Of a stretch of DNA of 60,200 nt, positions 1,258 to 59,870 are shown one piece after another (the first letter of the stretch is position 1; every line of letters starts with the position of its first letter). Under the pieces are notes generated by a model. It did not search any database and was not told the DNA's origin. It saw nothing but the letters and a program-made list of their open reading frames with translations. The position numbers and the translations under genes were made by a program. Source of the stretch: Bacteroidales bacterium (lineage in GTDB: Bacteria > Bacteroidota > Bacteroidia > Bacteroidales > UBA12170); NCBI GenBank assembly GCA_027858955.1, contig JAQIBR010000165.1, positions 1-60,200 on the forward strand, given 5' to 3'.

Positions 1258-1296
1258 TATCGTCTAATATTTAGAAGAAAATCGATATATTATTAA

Positions 1297-1310
1297 TTAT
1301 GCAAGCATAA
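1297..1310. promoter_or_regulatory. Palindrome TTATGC-N2-GCATAA, candidate operator
   Basis: A perfect 6-bp inverted repeat with a two-base spacer (AA) overlaps the -33 region of the promoter of the catabolic operon. An almost identical 21-bp element (one base different) lies at 57126-57142 and around, upstream of the membrane pyrophosphatase. Position and symmetry suggest a regulator-binding site; the regulator is unknown. Confidence 0.5.
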
Positions 1311-1328
1311 GAAAATATTTTACATTTG
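1298..1328 (+). promoter_or_regulatory. Promoter of the branched-chain acyl-CoA operon
   Basis: TACATTTG at 1321-1328 matches the Bacteroidota TAnnTTTG -7 box. Nineteen bases upstream sits TATG (1298-1301), one base away from the TTTG -33 box. The -33 box lies inside the palindrome at 1297-1310, so an operator-bound protein could block or assist it. Predicted start of transcription is near 1335, about 30 nt before the first gene. Confidence 0.6.
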
Positions 1329-2996: not shown

Positions 2997-4904
2997 ATGG
3001 CTATCAAAATCAAGACTTTAAGTGGTTATTTTCATGAATATCAAAAGAGTGTCGTAAACCCTGAACAATTTTGGAGTCAGCAAGCAGAGGAGTTTTTTTG
3101 GCATAAAAAATGCGACAATATTCTTGATTGGAACTTCGATGAACCTAAAATAGAGTGGTTTAAAGGAGGAAAATTAAATTTGACAGAAAATATTTTCGAG
3201 CGACAAATTTTTACTCGTAAAGATCAAGCAGCTATAGTTTGGGAGCCAAATAATCCAGACGAGGAAAGCGTCACTCTTACTTATGGTCAATTGTTTGAAA
3301 AAGTAAAGCAGTTTTCAAATGTCTTACTTTCATTGGGCGTAAAGAAAGGCGATAGAGTTGCTCTTTATATGCCAATGATTCCTGAATTGGCAATTGCCAT
3401 GTTATCGTGTGCAAGAATTGGCGCAATTCATAGTATTATTTTTGCTGGGTTTTCAAGTACGTCATTGGCAGATAGAATTATCGATGCTCAGGCAAAAGTT
3501 GTTATCGCAACTGATGGTGGTTTTCGTGGAACAAAAACGATTCCGATAAAATCTATCGTTGATGAAGCATTACAAAAATGCGATTCTGTTGAAAAGGTTA
3601 TTGTTAAGAAAAGAACAGGTGAAAAAATTTCAATGAAAATTGGCAGAGACCTTTGGTGGGATGAAATTTGTGAAGGAATTTCAACTGAAAATACTGCGGA
3701 AGTTCTTGATGCGGAAGATCCATTATTTATTCTATATACCTCAGGATCAACGGGAAAACCAAAAGGAGTATTGCACACTACCGGAGGTTATATGGTTTAT
3801 ACGGCATATACTTTCAGAAATGTTTTTCAGTATAGTCAAGGTGATGTTTTTTTCTGCTCGGCAGATATTGGATGGATTACCGGGCATTCGTATATTGTGT
3901 ATGGCCCTCTTCTCAGCGGAGCAACTACTTTGATGTTTGAAGGTATTCCGACTTGGCCGGATGCCGGTCGATTTTGGGATATTGTGGAAAAACATCAAGT
4001 AAATCAATTTTATACTGCTCCAACTGCCATTCGTGCTTTAATGGCCTCAGGTAATAAATTTGTCGAAAACAGAGCAATGAAAAGCTTAAAAGTATTAGGA
4101 ACCGTAGGAGAACCAATCAATGAAGAAGCATGGCATTGGTATCACGATCATATCGGTAAAAACAAATGCCCTATTGTTGATACGTGGTGGCAAACCGAAA
4201 CCGGCGGAATTTTAATTAGTCCTTTAGCCGGTGTTACTCCTACAAAGCCGTCTTATGCTACTTTACCTTTACCCGGAATTCAACCAATCATCTTAGATAA
4301 GGAAGGCAAGGAATTAAAAGGGAATAGTGTTGAAGGAAATTTATGTATAAAATTTCCTTGGCCTGGAATGGCTCGGACACTTTATGGTGATCATGAGCGA
4401 TTTAGGTTAACATATTTTGATACTTACAGAAATTGTTATTTCACCGGTGACGGAGTCAAACGTGATGAGGATGGCTATTATCGAATTTTAGGACGAGTTG
4501 ATGATGTAATAAATGTTTCTGGTCATCGAATGGGTACAGCCGAAGTTGAAAATGCAATTAATGAACATCCTCGTGTTGTTGAATCGGCAGTAGTTGGTTA
4601 TCCTCACAAGATTAAAGGTCAGGGAATATATGCCTATGTTGTTTGCAACGAGATGGACGAAACAACAAGTGAAGAAGGAATAATTAAAAGTATAAAGATT
4701 GGAGTAAATAATATTATCGGTCCAATTGCAAAGCCAGATAAAGTATTGATAGTAAGTGGATTACCTAAAACACGTTCGGGTAAAATAATGCGAAGAATTT
4801 TAAGAAAAATAGCTTCTAACGATTATGCCGACTTTGGCGATACAAGTACTTTGCTCGATCCTGGAGTAGTTGAAGAAATAATTGAAAAATCTAAATTGAA
4901 TTAG
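2997..4904 (+). CDS. acsA: Acetyl-CoA synthetase family (AMP-forming)
   Basis: A 635-residue acyl-adenylate-forming ligase of the AcsA type that turns a short carboxylic acid, ATP and CoA into acyl-CoA, AMP and PPi. Seen: N-terminal ACS cap region, the P-loop-like YTSGSTGKPKG (about residue 247), VGEPIN, the acyl-pocket WWQTETGG (about 397) and the C-terminal SGKIMRRIL lysine (K596) used for adenylation and controlled by acetylation in AcsA. The conserved Val in VGEPI and the Trp pair favour a small acid such as acetate or propionate over acetoacetate. It lies 22 nt after the carboxylase beta gene and 6 nt before the hydratase, inside the operon, so it may recapture acid released by CoA-ester hydrolysis. 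Confidence 0.88.
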   Translation: MAIKIKTLSGYFHEYQKSVVNPEQFWSQQAEEFFWHKKCDNILDWNFDEPKIEWFKGGKLNLTENIFERQIFTRKDQAAIVWEPNNPDEESVTLTYGQLFEKVKQFSNVLLSLGVKKGDRVALYMPMIPELAIAMLSCARIGAIHSIIFAGFSSTSLADRIIDAQAKVVIATDGGFRGTKTIPIKSIVDEALQKCDSVEKVIVKKRTGEKISMKIGRDLWWDEICEGISTENTAEVLDAEDPLFILYTSGSTGKPKGVLHTTGGYMVYTAYTFRNVFQYSQGDVFFCSADIGWITGHSYIVYGPLLSGATTLMFEGIPTWPDAGRFWDIVEKHQVNQFYTAPTAIRALMASGNKFVENRAMKSLKVLGTVGEPINEEAWHWYHDHIGKNKCPIVDTWWQTETGGILISPLAGVTPTKPSYATLPLPGIQPIILDKEGKELKGNSVEGNLCIKFPWPGMARTLYGDHERFRLTYFDTYRNCYFTGDGVKRDEDGYYRILGRVDDVINVSGHRMGTAEVENAINEHPRVVESAVVGYPHKIKGQGIYAYVVCNEMDETTSEEGIIKSIKIGVNNIIGPIAKPDKVLIVSGLPKTRSGKIMRRILRKIASNDYADFGDTSTLLDPGVVEEIIEKSKLN

Positions 4905-4910
4905 TTCATC

Positions 4911-5699
4911 ATGAAGAATTTTGAAACCATCCAACTGGAAATAAAAAACGAAGTGGGCACAATCTGGCTCAACCGACCCGAAATCCACAATGCTTTTAAC
5001 GAAATAATGATTGCTGAACTTATCGAAATGTTTAAAGAAATTAAAACATTGGATGAAGTTAGGATAGTTGTTTTACGAGGAAGAGGAAAATCATTCTGTG
5101 CCGGTGCCGATTTAAACTGGATGCGCAATGTTGCCAAATACTCTTATAAGGATAATTTTGCCGAAAGCTTAAATCTTTCCAATTGTTTCTACGAAATATA
5201 TACTTGCCCAAAACCAACCATTGCCTTAATTCACGGCGCTGCAATTGGAGGAGCCAACGGCTTACTTGCTGCCTGTGATTTTGCTTATGCCGATGAAAAT
5301 ACAACCTTCTCATTAAGCGAAGTAAAAATAGGAATAGTACCTGCCTGCATTTCTCCTTATGTTACCAAAAGGGTTGGTGAATATGGTTCCAAAGAATTGA
5401 TGTTGACAGGCAAAAGATTCAAAGGAGAAGAAGCTGCTTATCACCGTTTGGTAAATAAATCATTGCCCGGAGATAAATTGGATGAATATTTGGAAGAGGT
5501 AATTGCCTTATTAAAAACAAGTGGTCCAAAAGCAATGAGTCACTGCAAAAATTTAATCTATGATATTTCCAACAAACTCACTTTACAAGAAGCCATTGGT
5601 TATACCGCTAAAATGATAGCTGATATCCGTGCATCGGAAGAAGGACAGGAAGGAATGTCAGCCTTTTTGGAAAAGCGTAAACCTAATTGGGTGGATTAG
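4911..5699 (+). CDS. Enoyl-CoA hydratase/isomerase family (methylglutaconyl-CoA hydratase-like)
   Basis: A 262-residue crotonase-fold enzyme. Seen: the oxyanion-hole segments FCAGADLNWM (about residues 62-71) and HGAAIGGANG (about 107-116), and the SLSEVKIGIVPA segment with a catalytic-region Glu. The AGADLNWM wording is typical of the LiuC/AUH group, which hydrates 3-methylglutaconyl-CoA to HMG-CoA in leucine breakdown. The gene sits between carboxylase-related genes, as expected for that step. It begins 6 nt after the synthetase stop. A generic short-chain enoyl-CoA hydratase is the alternative. Confidence 0.83.
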   Translation: MKNFETIQLEIKNEVGTIWLNRPEIHNAFNEIMIAELIEMFKEIKTLDEVRIVVLRGRGKSFCAGADLNWMRNVAKYSYKDNFAESLNLSNCFYEIYTCPKPTIALIHGAAIGGANGLLAACDFAYADENTTFSLSEVKIGIVPACISPYVTKRVGEYGSKELMLTGKRFKGEEAAYHRLVNKSLPGDKLDEYLEEVIALLKTSGPKAMSHCKNLIYDISNKLTLQEAIGYTAKMIADIRASEEGQEGMSAFLEKRKPNWVD

Positions 5700-5757: not shown

Positions 5758-7740
5758 ATGAAAATTTTCAATAAAATATTAATAGCCAACCGAGGCGAGA
5801 TTGCAGTTCGAATCATCAAATCGGCCAAAAAAATGGGAATACAAACGGTTGCTGTTTATTCCAAAGTCGATGCCGATAGTATGCACATTCGAATGGCTGA
5901 TGAAGCTCATTGCATTGGCGATACTGCTTTGGCCGAAACATATTTGAATATCGATAAAATCATCGCGCTGGCAAAAGAAGCAAATTGCGAAGCCATTCAC
6001 CCGGGTTATGGCTTTTTAGCTGAAAATCCAAAATTGGTCACCGCTTGCGAAAAAGCAGGAATCATTTTTATTGGCCCTTCAGTAAACGCCATTCAATTGA
6101 TGGGCAATAAAATCGAAGCCCGTGCCTTTGTTGAAACTTTGAAAATTCCAATGACCAAAGCACATACGGGTGACTTGACCCATCTGCTAAAAGCATCTAA
6201 ATCTATTGAGTTGCCTGTTTTGGTGAAGGCTGCGGCCGGTGGTGGCGGAAAAGGAATGCGCATTGTGAACGATTGGAAAGATCTAAAAGCAACGATTGAA
6301 GCGACATGCCGCGAAGCAAAAGCCTATTTTGGTGATGGTGAGGTTTTTGTTGAGAAATACGTTGAGAATCCACGTCATATCGAGATTCAGGTTATGGGCG
6401 ATAAACACGGAAACGTAGTGCATCTTTACGAGCGCGAATGTTCAATTCAACGCCGGTACCAAAAGGTAATCGAAGAATCTCCTTCTCTATCATTGACGCC
6501 TGAAGTGCGTGAAAAAATGGGTGCCGAAGCCGTGAAAATTGCCAAAGCCATTGGATATGACAATGCTGGAACCATCGAATTTTTAGTCGATAATAAGTTG
6601 AATTATTATTTTCTGGAAATGAATACGCGCGTTCAGGTAGAACATCCGGTAACGGAAATGGTAACAGGAATTGATATTGTTCGCGAACAATTGTTGGTTG
6701 CAGCAGGAAATAAATTAGGCTTTTCGCAAAGCGATGTAAAGCAAAATGGCCACGCGATAGAAGCACGTATCTACGCAGAAGATCCTGAAAATGATTTCCT
6801 TCCTTCACCGGGTTTTCTGACATTGTATCAAGAGCCGCAAGGCGAAGGCATAAGAGTAGACAGCGGAATTGATAAACCAATTGAAATAAAAAGCTTTTTC
6901 GATCCAATGATAAGCAAGTTAATTGCTTTTGATACCGATAGAGAGTTAGCACGAAAGAAACTGCTACAAGCTTTGGAGCATTATCATATTCACGGCTTAA
7001 AAACCAATATCACTTATTTGATGAGTGTATTGCAAAATAAGGAATTTCAAAAGAATAAAATCGATACTAAATTTTGTGATCATCAATCCGACAAGCTTAT
7101 TCAATGGATTCAAAAAGAAAGAGAAGTTATTTCTAAACCGATACTATTGAGTGCATTTTTGGCTCATCAATTTGAAAGTAATTCAAATGAATCAATATGG
7201 GGCAATATTGGATATTGGCGTCAGCGGATGCAAATCAAAATCAAGCTCGATGAAGATTTACATTCCATTCAAATTATCGAGAGGAGCCATAATAGTGGAT
7301 TTTTTCAAATTCAAGGAAAAGAATATAAAGTTTGTGTAAAAGAAATTAAGGTGAATTTTATTCAGGCTTCCATCAATGGCTATTGTTATAAATTTACGAT
7401 TTCGAAGGATAAAGAAGATAATTCCATAGTCGGGTTTCTAGGCCATAATTTTGTGCTTAGGCGCGATGATGTTTTATCAACACCAGATTTTTATGAAGCA
7501 GCTACGGTTGGGCAGGCCAGCGATATTGTTAAAACGCCAATGCCTGGTAAAGTAATTAAAGTTTTGGTAAGTGCTGGCGACAAGGTTCATAAAGGCGATG
7601 TGCTTTTAGTTGTGGAAGCTATGAAAATGGAAAATAATATTTTAACTTTTCGAGATGGTGTCATCGAAGAACTTAATGTTGTTGAAGGCGATATGGTAGA
7701 TGGCAGTAAAATATTATTGAAATTGGAAGAAGAAATATAA
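5758..7740 (+). CDS. mccA: Acyl-CoA carboxylase alpha subunit (biotin carboxylase plus biotin carrier)
   Basis: A 660-residue protein with an N-terminal biotin carboxylase domain (residues 1 to about 450; ANRGEIAVRII start, ATP-grasp loop GGGGKGMR at about 162-169, MNTRVQVEHPVTE) and a C-terminal biotin-carrier domain with EAMKMEN, biotinylated lysine K623. This length and layout are typical of MccA/LiuD. It carboxylates its own biotin with ATP and bicarbonate and passes it to the beta subunit encoded at 1367. The 58-nt gap before it carries two near copies of GACRAAGGGA (from 5709 and 5725). The middle of the protein (about 460-570) is less conserved, as in the family, where it docks the beta subunit. 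Confidence 0.9.
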   Translation: MKIFNKILIANRGEIAVRIIKSAKKMGIQTVAVYSKVDADSMHIRMADEAHCIGDTALAETYLNIDKIIALAKEANCEAIHPGYGFLAENPKLVTACEKAGIIFIGPSVNAIQLMGNKIEARAFVETLKIPMTKAHTGDLTHLLKASKSIELPVLVKAAAGGGGKGMRIVNDWKDLKATIEATCREAKAYFGDGEVFVEKYVENPRHIEIQVMGDKHGNVVHLYERECSIQRRYQKVIEESPSLSLTPEVREKMGAEAVKIAKAIGYDNAGTIEFLVDNKLNYYFLEMNTRVQVEHPVTEMVTGIDIVREQLLVAAGNKLGFSQSDVKQNGHAIEARIYAEDPENDFLPSPGFLTLYQEPQGEGIRVDSGIDKPIEIKSFFDPMISKLIAFDTDRELARKKLLQALEHYHIHGLKTNITYLMSVLQNKEFQKNKIDTKFCDHQSDKLIQWIQKEREVISKPILLSAFLAHQFESNSNESIWGNIGYWRQRMQIKIKLDEDLHSIQIIERSHNSGFFQIQGKEYKVCVKEIKVNFIQASINGYCYKFTISKDKEDNSIVGFLGHNFVLRRDDVLSTPDFYEAATVGQASDIVKTPMPGKVIKVLVSAGDKVHKGDVLLVVEAMKMENNILTFRDGVIEELNVVEGDMVDGSKILLKLEEEI

Positions 7741-7809
7741 ACATCTTGAAACGAAGTTTTGCGATGCTTAACTTTGCAAACAGGGATACTAACAGATAAA
7801 AAACAAGAA

Positions 7810-8958
7810 ATGAATTTTGATTTAAGTCAAGAACAAGAACTCATAAGGCAAACAGTACGCGATTTTGCCGAACGTGAAATTAAGCCTTTGGCGCAAGAGC
7901 TGGATGAAAAAGGAGAATTCTCTTACGAGTTAACAAAGAAAATAGGGGAACTGGGATTATTCGGTATGTATTTACCCGAAAAATACGGTGGACAAGGATT
8001 GGATACACTTTCATACATCATTGCTGTTGAAGAATTGGCTCGTGTAGATGGTTCTCAAGCAGCCACTTTAGCTGCTCACAATTCCTTGGGTATCGGACCT
8101 CTCTATTACTATGGAACAGAAGAGCAAAAGCTAAAATATTTACCTCAGCTTTGTACCGGAGAAGGAATGTGGGCGTTTGGATTAACAGAACCCGATGCTG
8201 GTTCAGATTCACGCGGTAGCAAAACTACTGCCAAATTGGAAAACGGACAATGGAATATAAATGGATCTAAAATATTTATCACAAACGGCGCTTCCGATAT
8301 TTCATTAGGCGCAACAGTTCAGGCAGTTACCAAAACATTCCCGGATGGTAAAAAAGAATTCACCACCATTATTGTTGAAAAAGGAACAGAAGGTTTTAAG
8401 CGTGTTGCTATGCACGGTAAAATGATGTGGCGTGCCTCGGATACTGCGGAATTGTATTTTGATGATTGTCAAGTCCCTGAAGAAAATCTGTTAGGCAAAG
8501 TAGGTGAAGGCTCTAAAATTATGTTGTCCACTTTAGATAATGGCCGACTGTCGATTGCAGCTATGGGTTTGGGTTTAGCGCAAGGAGCTTTTGAAGAAGC
8601 TTTGCGGTATTCGCAGGAACGCAAACAGTTTGGAAAACCCATCGGTAAATTCCAAATCAATGCTTTTAAGCTGGCCGATATGTCAATGAAAATTGAACTC
8701 GGACGCAATTTGCTTTACAAAGCCTGCTGGTTAAAAGATGAGGGAAAACCTTTCGCAAAAGAAGCAGCTATGTCAAAGCTGTATTGCTCCGAAATTGCTC
8801 GTGAAGTGGCTGATGAAGCTGTTCAGATTCATGGAGGTTATGGTTTAATGAAAGACTATCCTGTAGAGCGATTCTATCGCGATCAGCGTTTGCTGCAAAT
8901 TGGAGAAGGAACAAGCGAAATTCAACGTTTAGTAATTTCTCGCCATATTGGGTGTTAG
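7810..8958 (+). CDS. Acyl-CoA dehydrogenase (short-chain type active site)
   Basis: A 382-residue FAD enzyme that forms the alpha-beta double bond of an acyl-CoA and passes electrons to ETF. Seen: the three ACAD domains, with GLTEPDAGSD in the middle and YPVERFYRDQRL followed by GEGTSEIQR at the C-terminus. E366 occupies the usual catalytic-base position of short/medium-chain enzymes. Isovaleryl-CoA dehydrogenases have Ala there and use a Glu in an LDLERL segment; here that segment is LDNGRL (G245), so this is not a textbook isovaleryl-CoA dehydrogenase although its position in the operon suggests that role. The ATG at 7810 matches the family N-terminus; an upstream in-frame ATG at 7759 adds an unlikely 17 residues. 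Confidence 0.9.
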   Translation: MNFDLSQEQELIRQTVRDFAEREIKPLAQELDEKGEFSYELTKKIGELGLFGMYLPEKYGGQGLDTLSYIIAVEELARVDGSQAATLAAHNSLGIGPLYYYGTEEQKLKYLPQLCTGEGMWAFGLTEPDAGSDSRGSKTTAKLENGQWNINGSKIFITNGASDISLGATVQAVTKTFPDGKKEFTTIIVEKGTEGFKRVAMHGKMMWRASDTAELYFDDCQVPEENLLGKVGEGSKIMLSTLDNGRLSIAAMGLGLAQGAFEEALRYSQERKQFGKPIGKFQINAFKLADMSMKIELGRNLLYKACWLKDEGKPFAKEAAMSKLYCSEIAREVADEAVQIHGGYGLMKDYPVERFYRDQRLLQIGEGTSEIQRLVISRHIGC

Positions 8959-9004: not shown

Positions 9005-9697
9005 ATGAACAAAGTAGTAAAAAACGCAAAAGAAGCAATTGTTGGAATGGAAAACGGTCAGATATTTATGCTAGGTGGTTTTGGCTTAAGCGGTATTCCT
9101 GAAAATACAATAAATGCACTTGTTGAAAGTGGCCTAACAGATTTAACCTGTATTTCGAATAATGCCGGTGTTGATGATTTTGGTTTAGGATTGCTCTTGA
9201 AAAAGCATCAGATAAAAAAAATGATTTCATCTTATGTAGGTGAGAACAAAGAGTTTGAACGGCAACTTTTAGAAGGAGAATTGGAAGTGGATTTAATTCC
9301 CCAAGGAACTTTGGCCGAAAGAATACGTGCCGGAGGATCAGGAATTCCTGCATTTTTTGTTCCTGCAGGATATGGAACAGAAGTCGCCGAAGGCAAAGAA
9401 GTTCGTGAATTCAACGGAAAAATGCATTTGTTGGAGCACGGACTTACAGCTGATTTTGCCATAGTAAAAGCTTGGAAAGGCGATACGATGGGTAATCTAA
9501 TTTATCGCCATACGGCAAATAATTTTAATCAGCCAATGGCGATGGCTGGAAAAATTACGGTTGCAGAAGTTGAAGAGTTAGTGCCAGCGGGTGAACTCGA
9601 CCCCGCTCAAATTCATACTCCCGGAATTTTTGTTCAGCGAATTTTTCAAGGTGTTGATTATGAAAAGCGTATCGAGTTTGAAACAACTAAACAATAA
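9005..9697 (+). CDS. scoA: 3-oxoacid CoA-transferase subunit A
   Basis: This 230-residue subunit of a two-subunit CoA-transferase carries the [16 protein letters not shown] signature near the N-terminus and the [22 protein letters not shown] segment typical of ScoA/AtoD. Together with subunit B, 4 nt downstream, it would move CoA from succinyl-CoA to acetoacetate, giving acetoacetyl-CoA for thiolysis. This fits an operon whose lyase step releases acetoacetate. Length is normal for the family. The true acyl partner (acetoacetate, butyrate or acetate) is inferred from context. Confidence 0.9.
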
Positions 9698-9701
9698 AAA
9701 A

Positions 9702-10358
9702 ATGAGTTTAGATAAAAACGGAATTGCAAAACGTATTGCTCAGGAATTAAAAGATGGTTATTATGTTAACCTTGGAATAGGAATCCCAACATTGGTTGCC
9801 AATTTTGTTCCAGACGGAATGGAAGTCATTCTCCAATCTGAAAATGGCTTACTTGGAATTGGCCCTTTCCCTGAAAAAGGCAAGGCTGACGCAGATTTAA
9901 TCAATGCCGGAAAACAAACGGTAACAACTATTCCTGGTTCATCCTTTTTCGATTCATCTCTGAGTTTTGCTATGATTCGGGGTGGGCATGTAGATTTAAC
10001 TGTTCTTGGTGCTTTTGAAGTCACGGATAAAGGAGATATTTCTTCTTGGAAAATCCCAGGAAAAATGGTGAAAGGAATGGGAGGTGCAATGGATTTAGTC
10101 GCTGCGGCAAAAAATATTATCGTTGCAACAACACATACCGATAGAAATGGCAATCCGAAATTGGTGAAAGAATGCAAGCTTCCATTAACTGGAGTTCGTT
10201 GTGTAACGAAGATCGTTAGCGATCTTGCCGTTATTGAAGTTACAGATCAAGGCTTTAAACTTTTGGAGCGAGCTCCGGGGGTAGAAGTTCAAGAAATTAT
10301 TGATAAAACGGGAGCTCCTTTAATTGTTGAAGGGGAAATTCCTGAAATGAATTTGTAG
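9702..10358 (+). CDS. scoB: 3-oxoacid CoA-transferase subunit B
   Basis: A 218-residue beta subunit holding the catalytic glutamate in SENGLLGIGP (E47), which forms the glutamyl-CoA thioester. Other family marks are GYYVNLGIGIPTLVANF at the N-terminus and GGHVDLTVLGAFEV in the middle. The ATG at 9702 is chosen because it gives the family N-terminus (MSLDKNGIAKRIAQEL) and avoids the long overlap that an upstream in-frame ATG at 9591 would make with subunit A. It lies 4 nt after subunit A, so translation is probably coupled. Confidence 0.92.
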   Translation: MSLDKNGIAKRIAQELKDGYYVNLGIGIPTLVANFVPDGMEVILQSENGLLGIGPFPEKGKADADLINAGKQTVTTIPGSSFFDSSLSFAMIRGGHVDLTVLGAFEVTDKGDISSWKIPGKMVKGMGGAMDLVAAAKNIIVATTHTDRNGNPKLVKECKLPLTGVRCVTKIVSDLAVIEVTDQGFKLLERAPGVEVQEIIDKTGAPLIVEGEIPEMNL

Positions 10359-10524: not shown

Positions 10525-11532
10525 ATGAATTATCCAAAAAAAGTAACCATAGGAGACATAACCGTTCGCGACGGATTTCAGCACGAAGAAACACTTATAT
10601 CGACCGAGGCAAAGCTTTGGACATTAGAACAGCTCATTTTAGCTGGGTTTAAACATATCGAGGTTTCCAATTTCGGTAATCCAAGGGGAATGCCTCAATT
10701 TAAAGATTGTGACAACCTGTTTAGAGGAATCAGAAATTCCAAAAAGGTTAAAGATTTGATTGACGGTGTTAGCCTTACGGCGATAACCATTCGTGAAAAA
10801 GCTGTCGAACGGGCAATTCAAGCAAAATTGGATGGTTATGGTCCTGATCGTATTTTGTTAATGGTTTCAACCAGTGAATCTCATCATAAAAAGAATTCGG
10901 GTTTGTCCTTAAAGGATTATTGGAAAATGGCTGAGGAGCAAATAAAAAATGCTCACGATGCAGGTATTAAAGTTAATGGAACAGTAAGCACTATTTGGGG
11001 TTGCCCAATTGAAGGTCCTACGGAGATGAAAAAAGCGATTGAATTTGCTCAACGTTGGATTGATATTGGAGCCAATGATGTAGAACATGCCGATCACGAT
11101 GGTTCTGCATCACCAGATCGCGTTTATCGATATTATTCCATGCTTATGGATCATTTTCAAAAACCTAATAAACATATCGTTCATTTCCATACAACAAGAG
11201 GATGGGGATTGGCCAATGTGTTGGCTGCATTGCAAGCGGGGATGACCAATTTTGAGTCGACAATGGGAGGTATTGGCGGACAGCCAGCAAATTTTGTTAG
11301 TGGTGTTCCTGTTTCCGGTACTGGTGCCTATTATTATAAAGATCCTAATTTGGTAGGATTAGTTTCTACTGAAGATATGGTTGTTATGATGGATGAAATG
11401 GGTATAGAGACTAATTTAGATATTGATAAAGTATTGGAAATTGGCGCTATGGTCGAACGAATTGTTGGGCGAAGATTACGCTCAGAATCTATACTGAATG
11501 GAAGAATACCTAAGACTTTGACTGGAAATTAA
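10525..11532 (+). CDS. Divergent HMG-CoA lyase-like (DRE-TIM) protein
   Basis: A 335-residue TIM-barrel protein of the HMG-CoA lyase/2-isopropylmalate synthase superfamily. Seen: the barrel-start TVRDGFQHEE (R15, D16), IEVSNFGNP, and the metal-binding HFHTT (H220, H222). In true HMG-CoA lyases the catalytic loop is GLGGCP; here it reads GIGGQPANF, so the catalytic Cys is Gln (Q253), and a longer loop follows before STEDMVVMM. The operon position predicts HMG-CoA cleavage to acetoacetate and acetyl-CoA, but the missing Cys makes the exact reaction uncertain. It could be a separate lyase or carboxyltransferase subfamily. No promoter was recognised in front, so it probably shares the operon transcript. 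Confidence 0.75.
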   Translation: MNYPKKVTIGDITVRDGFQHEETLISTEAKLWTLEQLILAGFKHIEVSNFGNPRGMPQFKDCDNLFRGIRNSKKVKDLIDGVSLTAITIREKAVERAIQAKLDGYGPDRILLMVSTSESHHKKNSGLSLKDYWKMAEEQIKNAHDAGIKVNGTVSTIWGCPIEGPTEMKKAIEFAQRWIDIGANDVEHADHDGSASPDRVYRYYSMLMDHFQKPNKHIVHFHTTRGWGLANVLAALQAGMTNFESTMGGIGGQPANFVSGVPVSGTGAYYYKDPNLVGLVSTEDMVVMMDEMGIETNLDIDKVLEIGAMVERIVGRRLRSESILNGRIPKTLTGN

Positions 11533-56801: not shown

Positions 56802-57127
56802 CATTTTTTTTAACAAATGATTATGCTAATTTGAAATAATTCTACTCAAAAATGGCTTGTTTAATTACTCATATGATTTTCGTTTTTTCAGGATGTTTAG
56901 ATAGGCATTTTAGCTAAAACATATAATTGTTTTTACTCTAGATTTTCTACAAATTTACCTTAAAACGGTTAATATTTTACTTGTTTCAATCGTTTGAATT
57001 TATTTATAGTAAAAAGTAAAAATCATATTAATACCGTATAAAATATTGATATATAATAACTAACATTTGATTTTTAGATAGGAAAATCAGGTTTAAGGTT
57101 AAATTCTAGCTTAAAATCATAAATTAA

Positions 57128-57141
57128 TTATGCAGGCATAA
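57128..57141. promoter_or_regulatory. Palindrome TTATGC-N2-GCATAA upstream of the pyrophosphatase
   Basis: The same inverted repeat as at 1297-1310, here with AG as spacer. The shared stretch, ATTAATTATGCA then R then GCATAAGA, is 21 nt with one difference. It ends 20 nt before the -7 box, against 10 nt in the other copy, a shift of about one helical turn. Confidence 0.5.
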
Positions 57142-57161
57142 GACTTTAGTTTATAATTTTC

Positions 57162-57169
57162 TATTTTTG
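57162..57169 (+). promoter_or_regulatory. -7 box TATTTTTG for the pyrophosphatase gene
   Basis: TATTTTTG fits TAnnTTTG. The -33 region falls on the right arm of the palindrome and is a poor TTTG match, so an activator or an alternative factor may be needed. The leader is about 140 nt long. Confidence 0.5.
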
Positions 57170-57189: not shown

Positions 57190-57321
57190 ATGATTGGTTT
57201 TTCTTCATCTTATTCTTTATTCAAAAACAGAATTTTCATGCATATTTTATCTGTTTCAAAAGGCCAATTATGTATTCTTCATAAAAAGCAAAAAATAGTC
57301 ACTAATCTAAATTTTAAATGA
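57190..57321 (+). other. Possible 43-residue upstream ORF overlapping the pyrophosphatase start (ATGA)
   Basis: The frame starts with ATG after an A-rich stretch typical of Bacteroidota starts (AAAACAAAT) and ends in TGA at 57319-57321, sharing bases with the ATG at 57318. The peptide (MIGFSSSYSLFKNRIFMHIL and 23 more residues) has no recognised family. The overlap would allow translational coupling; chance is possible. Confidence 0.35.
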
Positions 57322-59870
57322 AAAAACTTATCGCAATTCTAGTCGGGTTAATGCTTCCGGTGCTTAGTATGGCAAGTGAAGCAGATTTAGTAATACCTGA
57401 TGCCATTAAAGAACAGAATATTTTATACTGGGGCTTTTTAATAACAGTCGCAGGAATGCTTTTTGGTTTATACCAATTTGTTCAAGTAAAGAAAATTAGA
57501 GCGCATAGGTCAATGCTGGATGTTGCTCAGGTTATTTTCGAAACATCAAAGACTTACTTGATTCAGCAAGGGAGATTTATTCTTATTCTATTTGCATTTA
57601 TCGGAACTGCTGTTGCATTTTACTTTGGATTTTTATCTAAGGATGCCAATGGAGAGAACTTATTTGGTGTTGGCGGAGTTTTGATGATTCTTGGCTGGAC
57701 AGTACTGGGAATCTTAGGTTCTTATGCTGTTGCTTGGTTTGGTATCAGAATGAATACTTTGGCCAACTCTCGTATGGCATTTGCATCTTTGGAAAGAAAG
57801 CCCATAAAGTTGCTTAATATACCACTAAATGCGGGTATGAGTATTGGTGTCGTATTGATTTCTTTAGAATTATTACTGATGCTTGTTATCCTAATGTTTG
57901 TACCTGGCCAATATGCCGGAGCTAGTTTTATTGGTTTTGCTATTGGTGAATCCTTGGGTGCTTCAGCATTACGTATTGCCGGTGGAATTTTTACTAAGAT
58001 TGCCGATATCGGTTCCGATTTAATGAAAGTTATCTTTAAAATTGGTGAAGATGATCCTCGTAATCCTGGTACCATTGCTGATTGTGTTGGTGATAATGCT
58101 GGTGATTCTGTTGGTCCAACTGCTGATGGTTTTGAAACTTATGGTGTTACTGGAGTTGCTTTAATTTCTTTTATACTTTTGGCAATATCCGGTCCGATTT
58201 TAAGCGTTTTGGCAGGTACTAATCCTGAATTTATTCAGCACATGGCAGCCGCTTTAAATGTTCAATCATTTTCAATTTCAAGTCCTGAATCAATGGATAC
58301 TTTAGCATCTGCTTTACAGGTAAAATTATTGGTTTGGATTTTTGTAATGCGTATTCTAATGATTCTAACATCGATTGCTGCTTTCTGGATCAATGGAGTT
58401 CTTACTAAAGCTAAATATAGCAGTGTAGATGAATTGGATTTCGAAAAGCCATTAACTGCTTTGGTTTGGATTACATCATTACTCTCAATGGTGGTTACTT
58501 TCGTAGCCAGTTATTTATTAATATCCGATTTAGGAAATAATTTGTGGATTTCACTTTCCGTTATCATTAGTGCAGGAACTCTTGGAGCTGCACTAATTCC
58601 TGAGTTTACAAAATTATTCACTAGCCCAAAATCTATCCACGTGAACGAAGTTGTTGAAGCCTCTAAAGAAGGTGGTGCATCTCTGAATATTCTTTCTGGT
58701 CTTGTTGCTGGTAATTTTAGTGCATTTTGGCAAGGAATGGTTTTCTTCTTCTTAATGTTTATTGCTTACTATGCTTCTACTTTTGGTTTGGGTGATATTA
58801 TGATTTATCCTTCCATTTTTGCTTTCGGTTTAGTTGCTTTTGGTATGTTAGGAATGGGACCAGTTACTATTGCTGTTGATAGTTATGGGCCAGTAACTGA
58901 TAATGCGCAATCTATCTATGAATTATCTTTGATTGAAGATAATAGAGAAGAGACTATATCTGATATTGAAAGAGATTTTGGATTCACTCCCGATTTTGAA
59001 AAATCGAAATATTATCTTGAAGCTAATGATGGTGCTGGAAATACATTTAAGGCAACCGCTAAACCGGTTCTTATCGGGACTGCCGTTGTTGGAGCAACCA
59101 CTATGATTTTTGCTTTGATTTTAGTAATTGAACATTCATTAGGTATAAAACCTGAGGAAATTTTAAACTTGCTTAATCCATACACTATTTTTGGATTTTT
59201 ACTTGGTGGTGCTGTAATTTATTGGTTCTCCGGAGCTAGTATTCAGGCTGTAACTACTGGCGCAAGTCGTGCTGTTGCTTATATCAAAGACAATATCAAC
59301 CTCGATCCAAATGCTCCTAAAAAAGCAGATGTTGAAAAATCAAGGGCAGTTGTAATGATTTGTACTCAATATGCACAAAAGGGGATGTTAAATATTTTTA
59401 TCGCTATTTTCTCCTTTGCATTGGCATTTGCTTTCCTTTCATCTCCTGTGGGTTTTGTCGATAGTATGAGCGATGCGGATAAATTATTAGCTGCTGCTCC
59501 GGTATCCATGTTTGTTAGTTATCTGATTTCTATTGCATTTTTTGGATTATACCAAGCTATTTTTATGGCCAATGCCGGTGGCGCTTGGGACAATGCTAAA
59601 AAAGTAATTGAAGTTGATATGCAGGAAAAAGGAACTGATTTACATGCTGCTGCCGTTGTTGGAGATACAGTAGGCGATCCTTTTAAAGATACATCTTCTG
59701 TTGCGCTTAACCCAATCATTAAGTTTACAACATTATTCGGATTGTTAGCAATGGAGATTGCAATTGCTCCTGCATTTAGAGAAATGGCGCCTTATTTTGG
59801 TCTCGCTTTTTTAGCAATTGCACTTTACTTTGTTTACAGATCATTCTATAAAATGCGTATTAGAAGCTAA
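57318..59870 (+). CDS. hppA: Membrane-bound ion-pumping pyrophosphatase
   Basis: An 850-residue, about 16-helix membrane enzyme that couples PPi hydrolysis to H+ or Na+ transport. Seen: the substrate site GEDDPRNPGTIADCVGDNAG and GDSVGPTADGFETYG, a second acidic cluster AVDSYGPVTDNAQSIYE and the late GDTVGDPFKDTSSVALNP. At the position that sets K+ dependence, GNTFKATAK has Lys (K578), the K+-independent signature. It is longer than many family members, partly through a signal-like N-terminus and inserts. It salvages energy from PPi made by ligases such as those in this window. Ion choice is not certain. Confidence 0.94.
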   Translation: MKKLIAILVGLMLPVLSMASEADLVIPDAIKEQNILYWGFLITVAGMLFGLYQFVQVKKIRAHRSMLDVAQVIFETSKTYLIQQGRFILILFAFIGTAVAFYFGFLSKDANGENLFGVGGVLMILGWTVLGILGSYAVAWFGIRMNTLANSRMAFASLERKPIKLLNIPLNAGMSIGVVLISLELLLMLVILMFVPGQYAGASFIGFAIGESLGASALRIAGGIFTKIADIGSDLMKVIFKIGEDDPRNPGTIADCVGDNAGDSVGPTADGFETYGVTGVALISFILLAISGPILSVLAGTNPEFIQHMAAALNVQSFSISSPESMDTLASALQVKLLVWIFVMRILMILTSIAAFWINGVLTKAKYSSVDELDFEKPLTALVWITSLLSMVVTFVASYLLISDLGNNLWISLSVIISAGTLGAALIPEFTKLFTSPKSIHVNEVVEASKEGGASLNILSGLVAGNFSAFWQGMVFFFLMFIAYYASTFGLGDIMIYPSIFAFGLVAFGMLGMGPVTIAVDSYGPVTDNAQSIYELSLIEDNREETISDIERDFGFTPDFEKSKYYLEANDGAGNTFKATAKPVLIGTAVVGATTMIFALILVIEHSLGIKPEEILNLLNPYTIFGFLLGGAVIYWFSGASIQAVTTGASRAVAYIKDNINLDPNAPKKADVEKSRAVVMICTQYAQKGMLNIFIAIFSFALAFAFLSSPVGFVDSMSDADKLLAAAPVSMFVSYLISIAFFGLYQAIFMANAGGAWDNAKKVIEVDMQEKGTDLHAAAVVGDTVGDPFKDTSSVALNPIIKFTTLFGLLAMEIAIAPAFREMAPYFGLAFLAIALYFVYRSFYKMRIRS

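Follow-up and report, generated by a model that had tools for sequence, protein, structure and literature searches.

A conserved palindrome upstream of a leucine-type operon and a membrane pyrophosphatase: a candidate operator of MarR-family regulators of acyl-CoA catabolism in Bacteroidales

Genes at the two ends of the window

The window, i.e. the whole stretch of 60,200 nucleotides analysed here, comes from a Bacteroidales bacterium and begins with an operon on the plus strand. Its first gene (1367-2974, GTG start) encodes a biotin-dependent carboxyltransferase (PF01039). All NCBIfam matches of this protein are below cut-off, and by context it is the beta subunit of a methylcrotonyl-CoA carboxylase-type enzyme. 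Next on the same strand are an acetate--CoA ligase type enzyme (2997-4904; TIGR02188 above cut-off), which is PPi-forming by family, and a protein of the enoyl-CoA hydratase family (4911-5699; PF00378). The best NCBIfam match of the latter, gamma-carboxygeranoyl-CoA hydratase, is below cut-off, and context makes it methylglutaconyl-CoA hydratase-like. The operon continues, still on the plus strand, with a biotin carboxylase and biotin carrier subunit (5758-7740; PF00289, PF02786, PF02785, PF00364), an acyl-CoA dehydrogenase (7759-8958; PF00441 and others), subunit A (9005-9697; TIGR02429 above cut-off) and subunit B (9591-10358) of a 3-oxoacid CoA-transferase, and a hydroxymethylglutaryl-CoA lyase-like protein (10525-11532; PF00682; NF004283 below cut-off). 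Subunit B matches TIGR02428 above cut-off from residue 41, and its true start probably lies further in.

By domains, the full liu-type set of leucine/isovalerate enzymes is found together in this operon. The specific NCBIfam models for methylcrotonyl-CoA carboxylase and isovaleryl-CoA dehydrogenase all remain below cut-off, so the substrate names used here rest on context.

Near the other end of the window, also on the plus strand, lies the gene of a membrane pyrophosphatase (57318-59870; PF03030). NCBIfam predicts it to be of the sodium-translocating type (NF001950, 1270 bits vs a cut-off of 826). The protein has 850 aa, and its alignment to each of six full-length relatives from the genus (802-819 aa) splits at about residues 292/331, which suggests that some 35-38 residues are inserted at this point.

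The 21-bp element and its promoter boxes

A 21-bp palindromic element, ATTAATTATGCA[A/G]GCATAAGA, is present twice in the window, once upstream of each of these transcription units. The first copy, ATTAATTATGCAAGCATAAGA, is located at 1292-1312 and the second, ATTAATTATGCAGGCATAAGA, at 57123-57143; no strand is assigned to either. The copies are identical in 20 of 21 bases. Each contains an exact operator core, TTATGCAAGCATAA at 1297-1310 and TTATGCAGGCATAA at 57128-57141, and is followed on the plus strand by a -7 promoter box of the form TAnnTTTG. This box is TACATTTG at 1321-1328, 10 nt past the first operator, and TATTTTTG at 57162-57169, 20 nt past the second. A sequence-only reading of the window had described the two copies as differing in one base, as sharing TTATGC-N2-GCATAA, and as lying 10 and 20 nt before a TAnnTTTG box, and the positions and distances agree in every respect.

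That reading had also proposed comparing the motif with its chance frequency. The exact core, TTATGCNNGCATAA, occurs twice in the window vs none in 100 dinucleotide shuffles. With up to three mismatches the 21-mer is found twice, i.e. only as the two known copies, while 0.04 are expected. The core with up to two mismatches is at chance level in the window (5 vs 4.83 expected). In the whole genome (3.46 Mb in 273 contigs) there are three exact cores and one match to the reversed control. The third core, on contig C185, adjoins a putative transposase-like ORF and does not obviously belong to a promoter of the target set described below.

According to PMC9723704, the TAnnTTTG consensus of Flavobacterium psychrophilum occupies positions -12 to -5. 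With the box in this position, the operator of the operon covers about -36 to -23, i.e. the -33 region. The operator of the pyrophosphatase (hereafter also the pump) is placed at about -46 to -33, approximately one helical turn upstream of the operon placement.

Conservation within the genus

The genus was sampled with 11 genomes, and the carboxyltransferase gene was found in ten of these. All ten carry the operon promoter site, with no more than one mismatch. For the pyrophosphatase, an intact upstream region is available in eight genomes, as it is cut by a contig end in G006, while G008 and G009 gave no match to the gene; seven of the eight have the site, again with no more than one mismatch. 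The exception is G002, where no site is found upstream of the pyrophosphatase and the best match has three mismatches. The distance from operator to TAnnTTTG is 10 nt at nine operon promoters and 9 nt at the tenth, and it is 20 nt at all seven pyrophosphatase promoters with a site. Compared with the operon, exactly 10 bp more separate the operator from the -7 box at the pump in all seven of these genomes. Conservation at orthologous promoters, to which the sequence-only reading had looked for support, is thus seen within the genus at both promoters (10/10 and 7/8) and with constant spacing. Because these promoters share a common ancestry, the counts do not represent independent events.

As a control for the palindrome, the letters of the arm TTATGC were permuted, which gives 120 palindromes, the true one and 119 others. 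The true palindrome is found at 10 operon and 7 pump promoters, vs 1 and 1 for the best of the others. In two alignments of seven genomes each, 9/10 motif columns are invariant vs 23/99 and 30/147 of the other gapless columns; the operon alignment leaves out G002, G003 and G009, where the site is far from the start, and the pump alignment leaves out G002, which has no site. One exact operon site (locus L075 of G008) falls within a short opposing ORF, which we take to be spurious.

Further sites in the genus and in this genome

The exact core has 16 sites in the 11 genus genomes vs 11 for the reversed control. Fifteen of the 16 precede the operon (8), methylmalonyl-CoA epimerase (4), the pyrophosphatase (2) or an acyl-CoA ligase (1). 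The genome-wide enrichment is small, and it is the location and conservation of the sites that carry the argument, with locations considered for the motif sites alone. With up to one mismatch there are 139 strand matches in the 11 genomes vs 73 for the control, and merging of strands gives 97 distinct sites. Of these, 75 were examined (16 exact and 59 with a single mismatch), while 22 were dropped by eye, mostly because of irregular cores. Among the 59 single-mismatch sites, 29 are in promoters of the target set: isobutyryl-CoA mutase (7), pyrophosphatase, acyl-CoA ligase, isocitrate dehydrogenase and marR-A (4 each), acyl-CoA dehydrogenase (3), the operon (2) and citrate synthase (1). The remaining 30 lie within genes, at aldehyde dehydrogenase (2), or in unrelated or ambiguous places.

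The recurrent targets are an acyl-CoA ligase promoter (5 genomes), methylmalonyl-CoA epimerase with a carboxyltransferase gene next downstream (4 genomes), monomeric isocitrate dehydrogenase (4 genomes), the fused isobutyryl-CoA mutase IcmF (7 genomes, including this one, G000) and acyl-CoA dehydrogenase (3 genomes, plus G000, where TATGCATGCATA is found on contig C124). The look across all genomes was confined to the operon, the pyrophosphatase, marR-A and marR-B, and the counts for the other targets are therefore no fractions of genomes. In one genus member the site CTATGCGAGCATAA is located upstream of the gene for citrate synthase (L222, 1561). Two members have TTATCCATGCATAA or its complement where a gene for an aldehyde dehydrogenase begins (L184, 1511; L219, 1554). 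We take this aldehyde dehydrogenase to be of the proline-catabolism type.

The placement relative to the -7 box differs between the targets. The operator precedes the box by 9 nt at all five acyl-CoA ligase promoters measured and by 11-13 nt at all four isocitrate dehydrogenase promoters measured. At marR-A (9/9) and at the isobutyryl-CoA mutase (7/7) the -7 box TATGTTTG is found inside the operator TTATGTTTGCATAA, for instance in L251 upstream of 1926 (marR-A) and in L340 at 54-65 (mutase). The operator is asymmetric at these two genes because the box forms part of it. Two of the four acyl-CoA dehydrogenase sites have a box 2-3 nt downstream, and the other two have no TAnnTTTG nearby. None was seen near any of the four methylmalonyl-CoA epimerase sites checked.

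In this genome, the pattern TATGYNNRCATA has 18 sites vs 12 for the control. Five of the 18 are in promoters of the set, i.e. the operon, the pyrophosphatase, marR-A, the mutase and acyl-CoA dehydrogenase; the last of these falls inside a 76-codon opposing ORF.

Two MarR-family paralogues as candidate regulators

The genus contains two MarR paralogues, which in this genome are encoded on contigs C77 (MarR-A) and C242 (MarR-B). Both exceed the cut-off of the MarR winged-helix domain PF01047 (24.6 bits), with 47.4 bits for MarR-A and 29.5 bits for MarR-B. Upstream of marR-A, TATGTTTGCATA lies 14-22 nt before the start in 9/9 genus genomes, with the consensus [TCG]TATGTTTGCATAA in the same nine. 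At marR-B, two copies of TGCATGCA flank TAnnTTTG, one on either side, in all seven intact genus genes. In G004 a contig end leaves just a fragment of marR-B, and neither marR gene was found in G007; both of these genomes are incomplete. marR-B is the first gene of an operon, and the next gene encodes, by domain, a FadB-type 3-hydroxyacyl-CoA dehydrogenase.

The sequence-only reading had suggested one regulator for acyl-CoA breakdown and the pump. This suggestion is supported by the conservation of the shared site and by its presence at further acyl-CoA genes. Both MarR paralogues are preceded by such sites, so the one regulator may be two.

The palindrome beyond the genus

When 148 genomes of the phylum were searched for homologues of MarR-B, 28 had one, including this genome. 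The other 27 belong to the same class and to six families, and are referred to as the distant genomes. When perfect 5-nt dyads upstream of their marR homologues are counted without bias, TATGCNNGCATA (TATGC-N2-GCATA) is the most frequent and is present in 24 of the 27. The runner-up, ATGCATGCAT, is present in 13 and is contained in the same sites. The full 14-mer is found exactly upstream of 8/27 and with at most one mismatch upstream of 21/27, vs 1 for the best other arrangement, and TGCNNGCA is found upstream of 25/27. A short palindromic operator candidate is therefore seen near the gene's own promoter at marR-A (9/9), at marR-B (7/7) and at the distant homologues (24/27).

In 13 of the 27 distant genomes a TAnnTTTG box follows the end of a site at a distance of 9-13 nt, and in 21 a FadB-like gene is located within 900 nt downstream of the marR homologue. 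Together, the dyads and the FadB neighbours tie the same palindrome to a MarR-B-type regulator in several families, with a theme of fatty-acid oxidation. At L297 and L298, which belong to the same distant family, two copies of TATGCATGCATA about 83 bp apart accompany the marR homologue; no FadB-like gene was seen directly downstream of it at these loci.

Across the 27 distant genomes there are 25 exact 14-mers, in 13 genomes, vs 13 for the control. Their neighbours include marR itself, electron-transfer flavoprotein, NADH:flavin oxidoreductase, a thioesterase-like protein, nitronate monooxygenase, an Fe-S protein and outer-membrane receptors, and two of the sites lie inside genes. The pump has no match in the 27 genomes at E <= 1e-50, an empty answer that is weak on its own. 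For 49 relatives at the level of the order, an 18-base form of the motif gives 11 matches with at most one mismatch vs 5 for the control.

A survey of the carboxyltransferase promoter in other Bacteroidota covered 80 loci, one of which was dropped as its upstream region was too short. Among the 79 measured, two have an exact site, one a site with one mismatch and three a site with two mismatches, while the reversed control gives none with fewer than two mismatches and six with two. Both exact sites belong to the two loci that resemble the query most closely. The conservation across genera that the sequence-only reading had hoped for is thus not found at this promoter, and the motif is mostly absent there outside the genus.

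Discussion

The comparisons above indicate that the motif is a real and conserved regulatory site, which would define a new regulon with the pump as an unusual member. We consider it very likely that the element serves as operator for one or two repressors of the MarR family that control acyl-CoA catabolism, and that the regulon here includes the sodium-type pyrophosphatase. MarR-B, its paralogue MarR-A, or both, whose genes lie outside the window, would bind TTATGCNNGCATAA as a dimer. The bound dimer would block the promoter, either with the operator over the -33 region, with the operator on the -7 box, or with two copies embracing the -7 box. It is this covering or embracing of the -7 box or the -33 region at several promoters that suggests a repressor. 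Acyl-CoA from the breakdown of fatty acids or branched-chain compounds could then release the MarR protein; such a ligand is proposed because of the content of the target genes and the MarR family. The regulon would place a PPi-driven sodium-type pump beside PPi-producing acyl-CoA ligases. A physiological link from the PPi of the acyl-CoA ligase to the pump, as already suggested by the sequence-only reading, appears reasonable.

At the pump, the same regulator might instead activate. A dimer bound there, at about -46 to -33, would touch RNA polymerase, and the pump and the breakdown genes would be switched oppositely. The distance of 20 nt agrees with this, as among the target groups measured it is found only at the pyrophosphatase (7/7), vs 9-13 nt at the operon, the acyl-CoA ligase and isocitrate dehydrogenase. 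However, the pump operator extends at its 3' end into the -33 region, from where the dimer could also block transcription, and a shift of 10 bp roughly keeps the helical face. The placements at marR-A, marR-B and the mutase are moreover those of a repressor, and we regard activation at the pump as rather unlikely. That the palindrome is bound by a different transcription factor, for which the marR genes are merely two targets, appears improbable, since the dyad dominates the regions upstream of the distant marR homologues (24 of 27) and is also found at both paralogues of the genus. An autoregulated marR would be the simplest reading of this pattern.

The element is a short AT-rich palindrome, and with two mismatches its count in the window equals chance, as would be expected if the likeness between the copies were fortuitous. 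Nevertheless, there are only three exact copies in 3.46 Mb, and the sites are conserved at orthologous promoters. Both window copies lie upstream of the -7 box and are thus not transcribed from that box. Because of this position, the rarity and the orthologous conservation, a chance likeness, a mobile repeat and a terminator or attenuator hairpin were all rejected, and we find it scarcely conceivable that any of them accounts for the element.

Comparison with known systems

One study reports that fish mucus and plasma strongly up-regulate the beta-oxidation genes of a flavobacterium, and the word MarR does not occur in its main text (PMC9723704). The titles and abstract openings of openly available papers gave no description of the operator sequence, of a MarR protein that controls fatty-acid breakdown in this phylum, or of a regulon of this type with a pyrophosphatase as a member. 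The operator and the candidate regulator would fill a gap in how the control of fatty-acid breakdown in this phylum is understood. The link to the pyrophosphatase would bring within reach of experiment the question of whether cells use membrane pyrophosphatases to regain energy from the PPi of acyl-CoA ligases.

Within the MarR family, FabT is similar in acting on lipid metabolism. The FabT model is not passed by the paralogues (25.6 and 38.9 bits vs a cut-off of 200), and unlike those of FabT, a regulator of fatty-acid biosynthesis, the targets here are degradation genes. The CouR-type acyl-CoA-responsive repressors share the MarR family and the acyl-CoA theme, with a weak match to CouR chains (E 0.0084). 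CouR acts in a different pathway. A p-coumaroyl-CoA sensor is built on CouR (PMC9594313).

The LiuR, PsrA and FadR regulons of Proteobacteria are described in PMC3223726, and in Shewanella LiuR covers liu, ivd and bkd as well as the glyoxylate shunt. The passages on these regulons mention no operator of the form TTATGCNNGCATAA and no membrane pyrophosphatase among the targets. It can be speculated, with the balance even in our judgement, that this MarR protein acts as a master switch for the breakdown of fatty acids and acyl-CoAs in several families of the class, i.e. as a counterpart of FadR and PsrA. In this genus its regulon would have been extended to the PPi-driven sodium-type pump, so that the command for the breakdown of the acids would also turn the PPi released by their activation into an ion gradient. 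LiuR belongs to the MerR family, whereas both candidate regulators here are MarR proteins. Like LiuR for branched-chain compounds and PsrA and FadR for fatty acids (PMC3223726), the proposed regulator would coordinate the breakdown genes and reach into central carbon metabolism.
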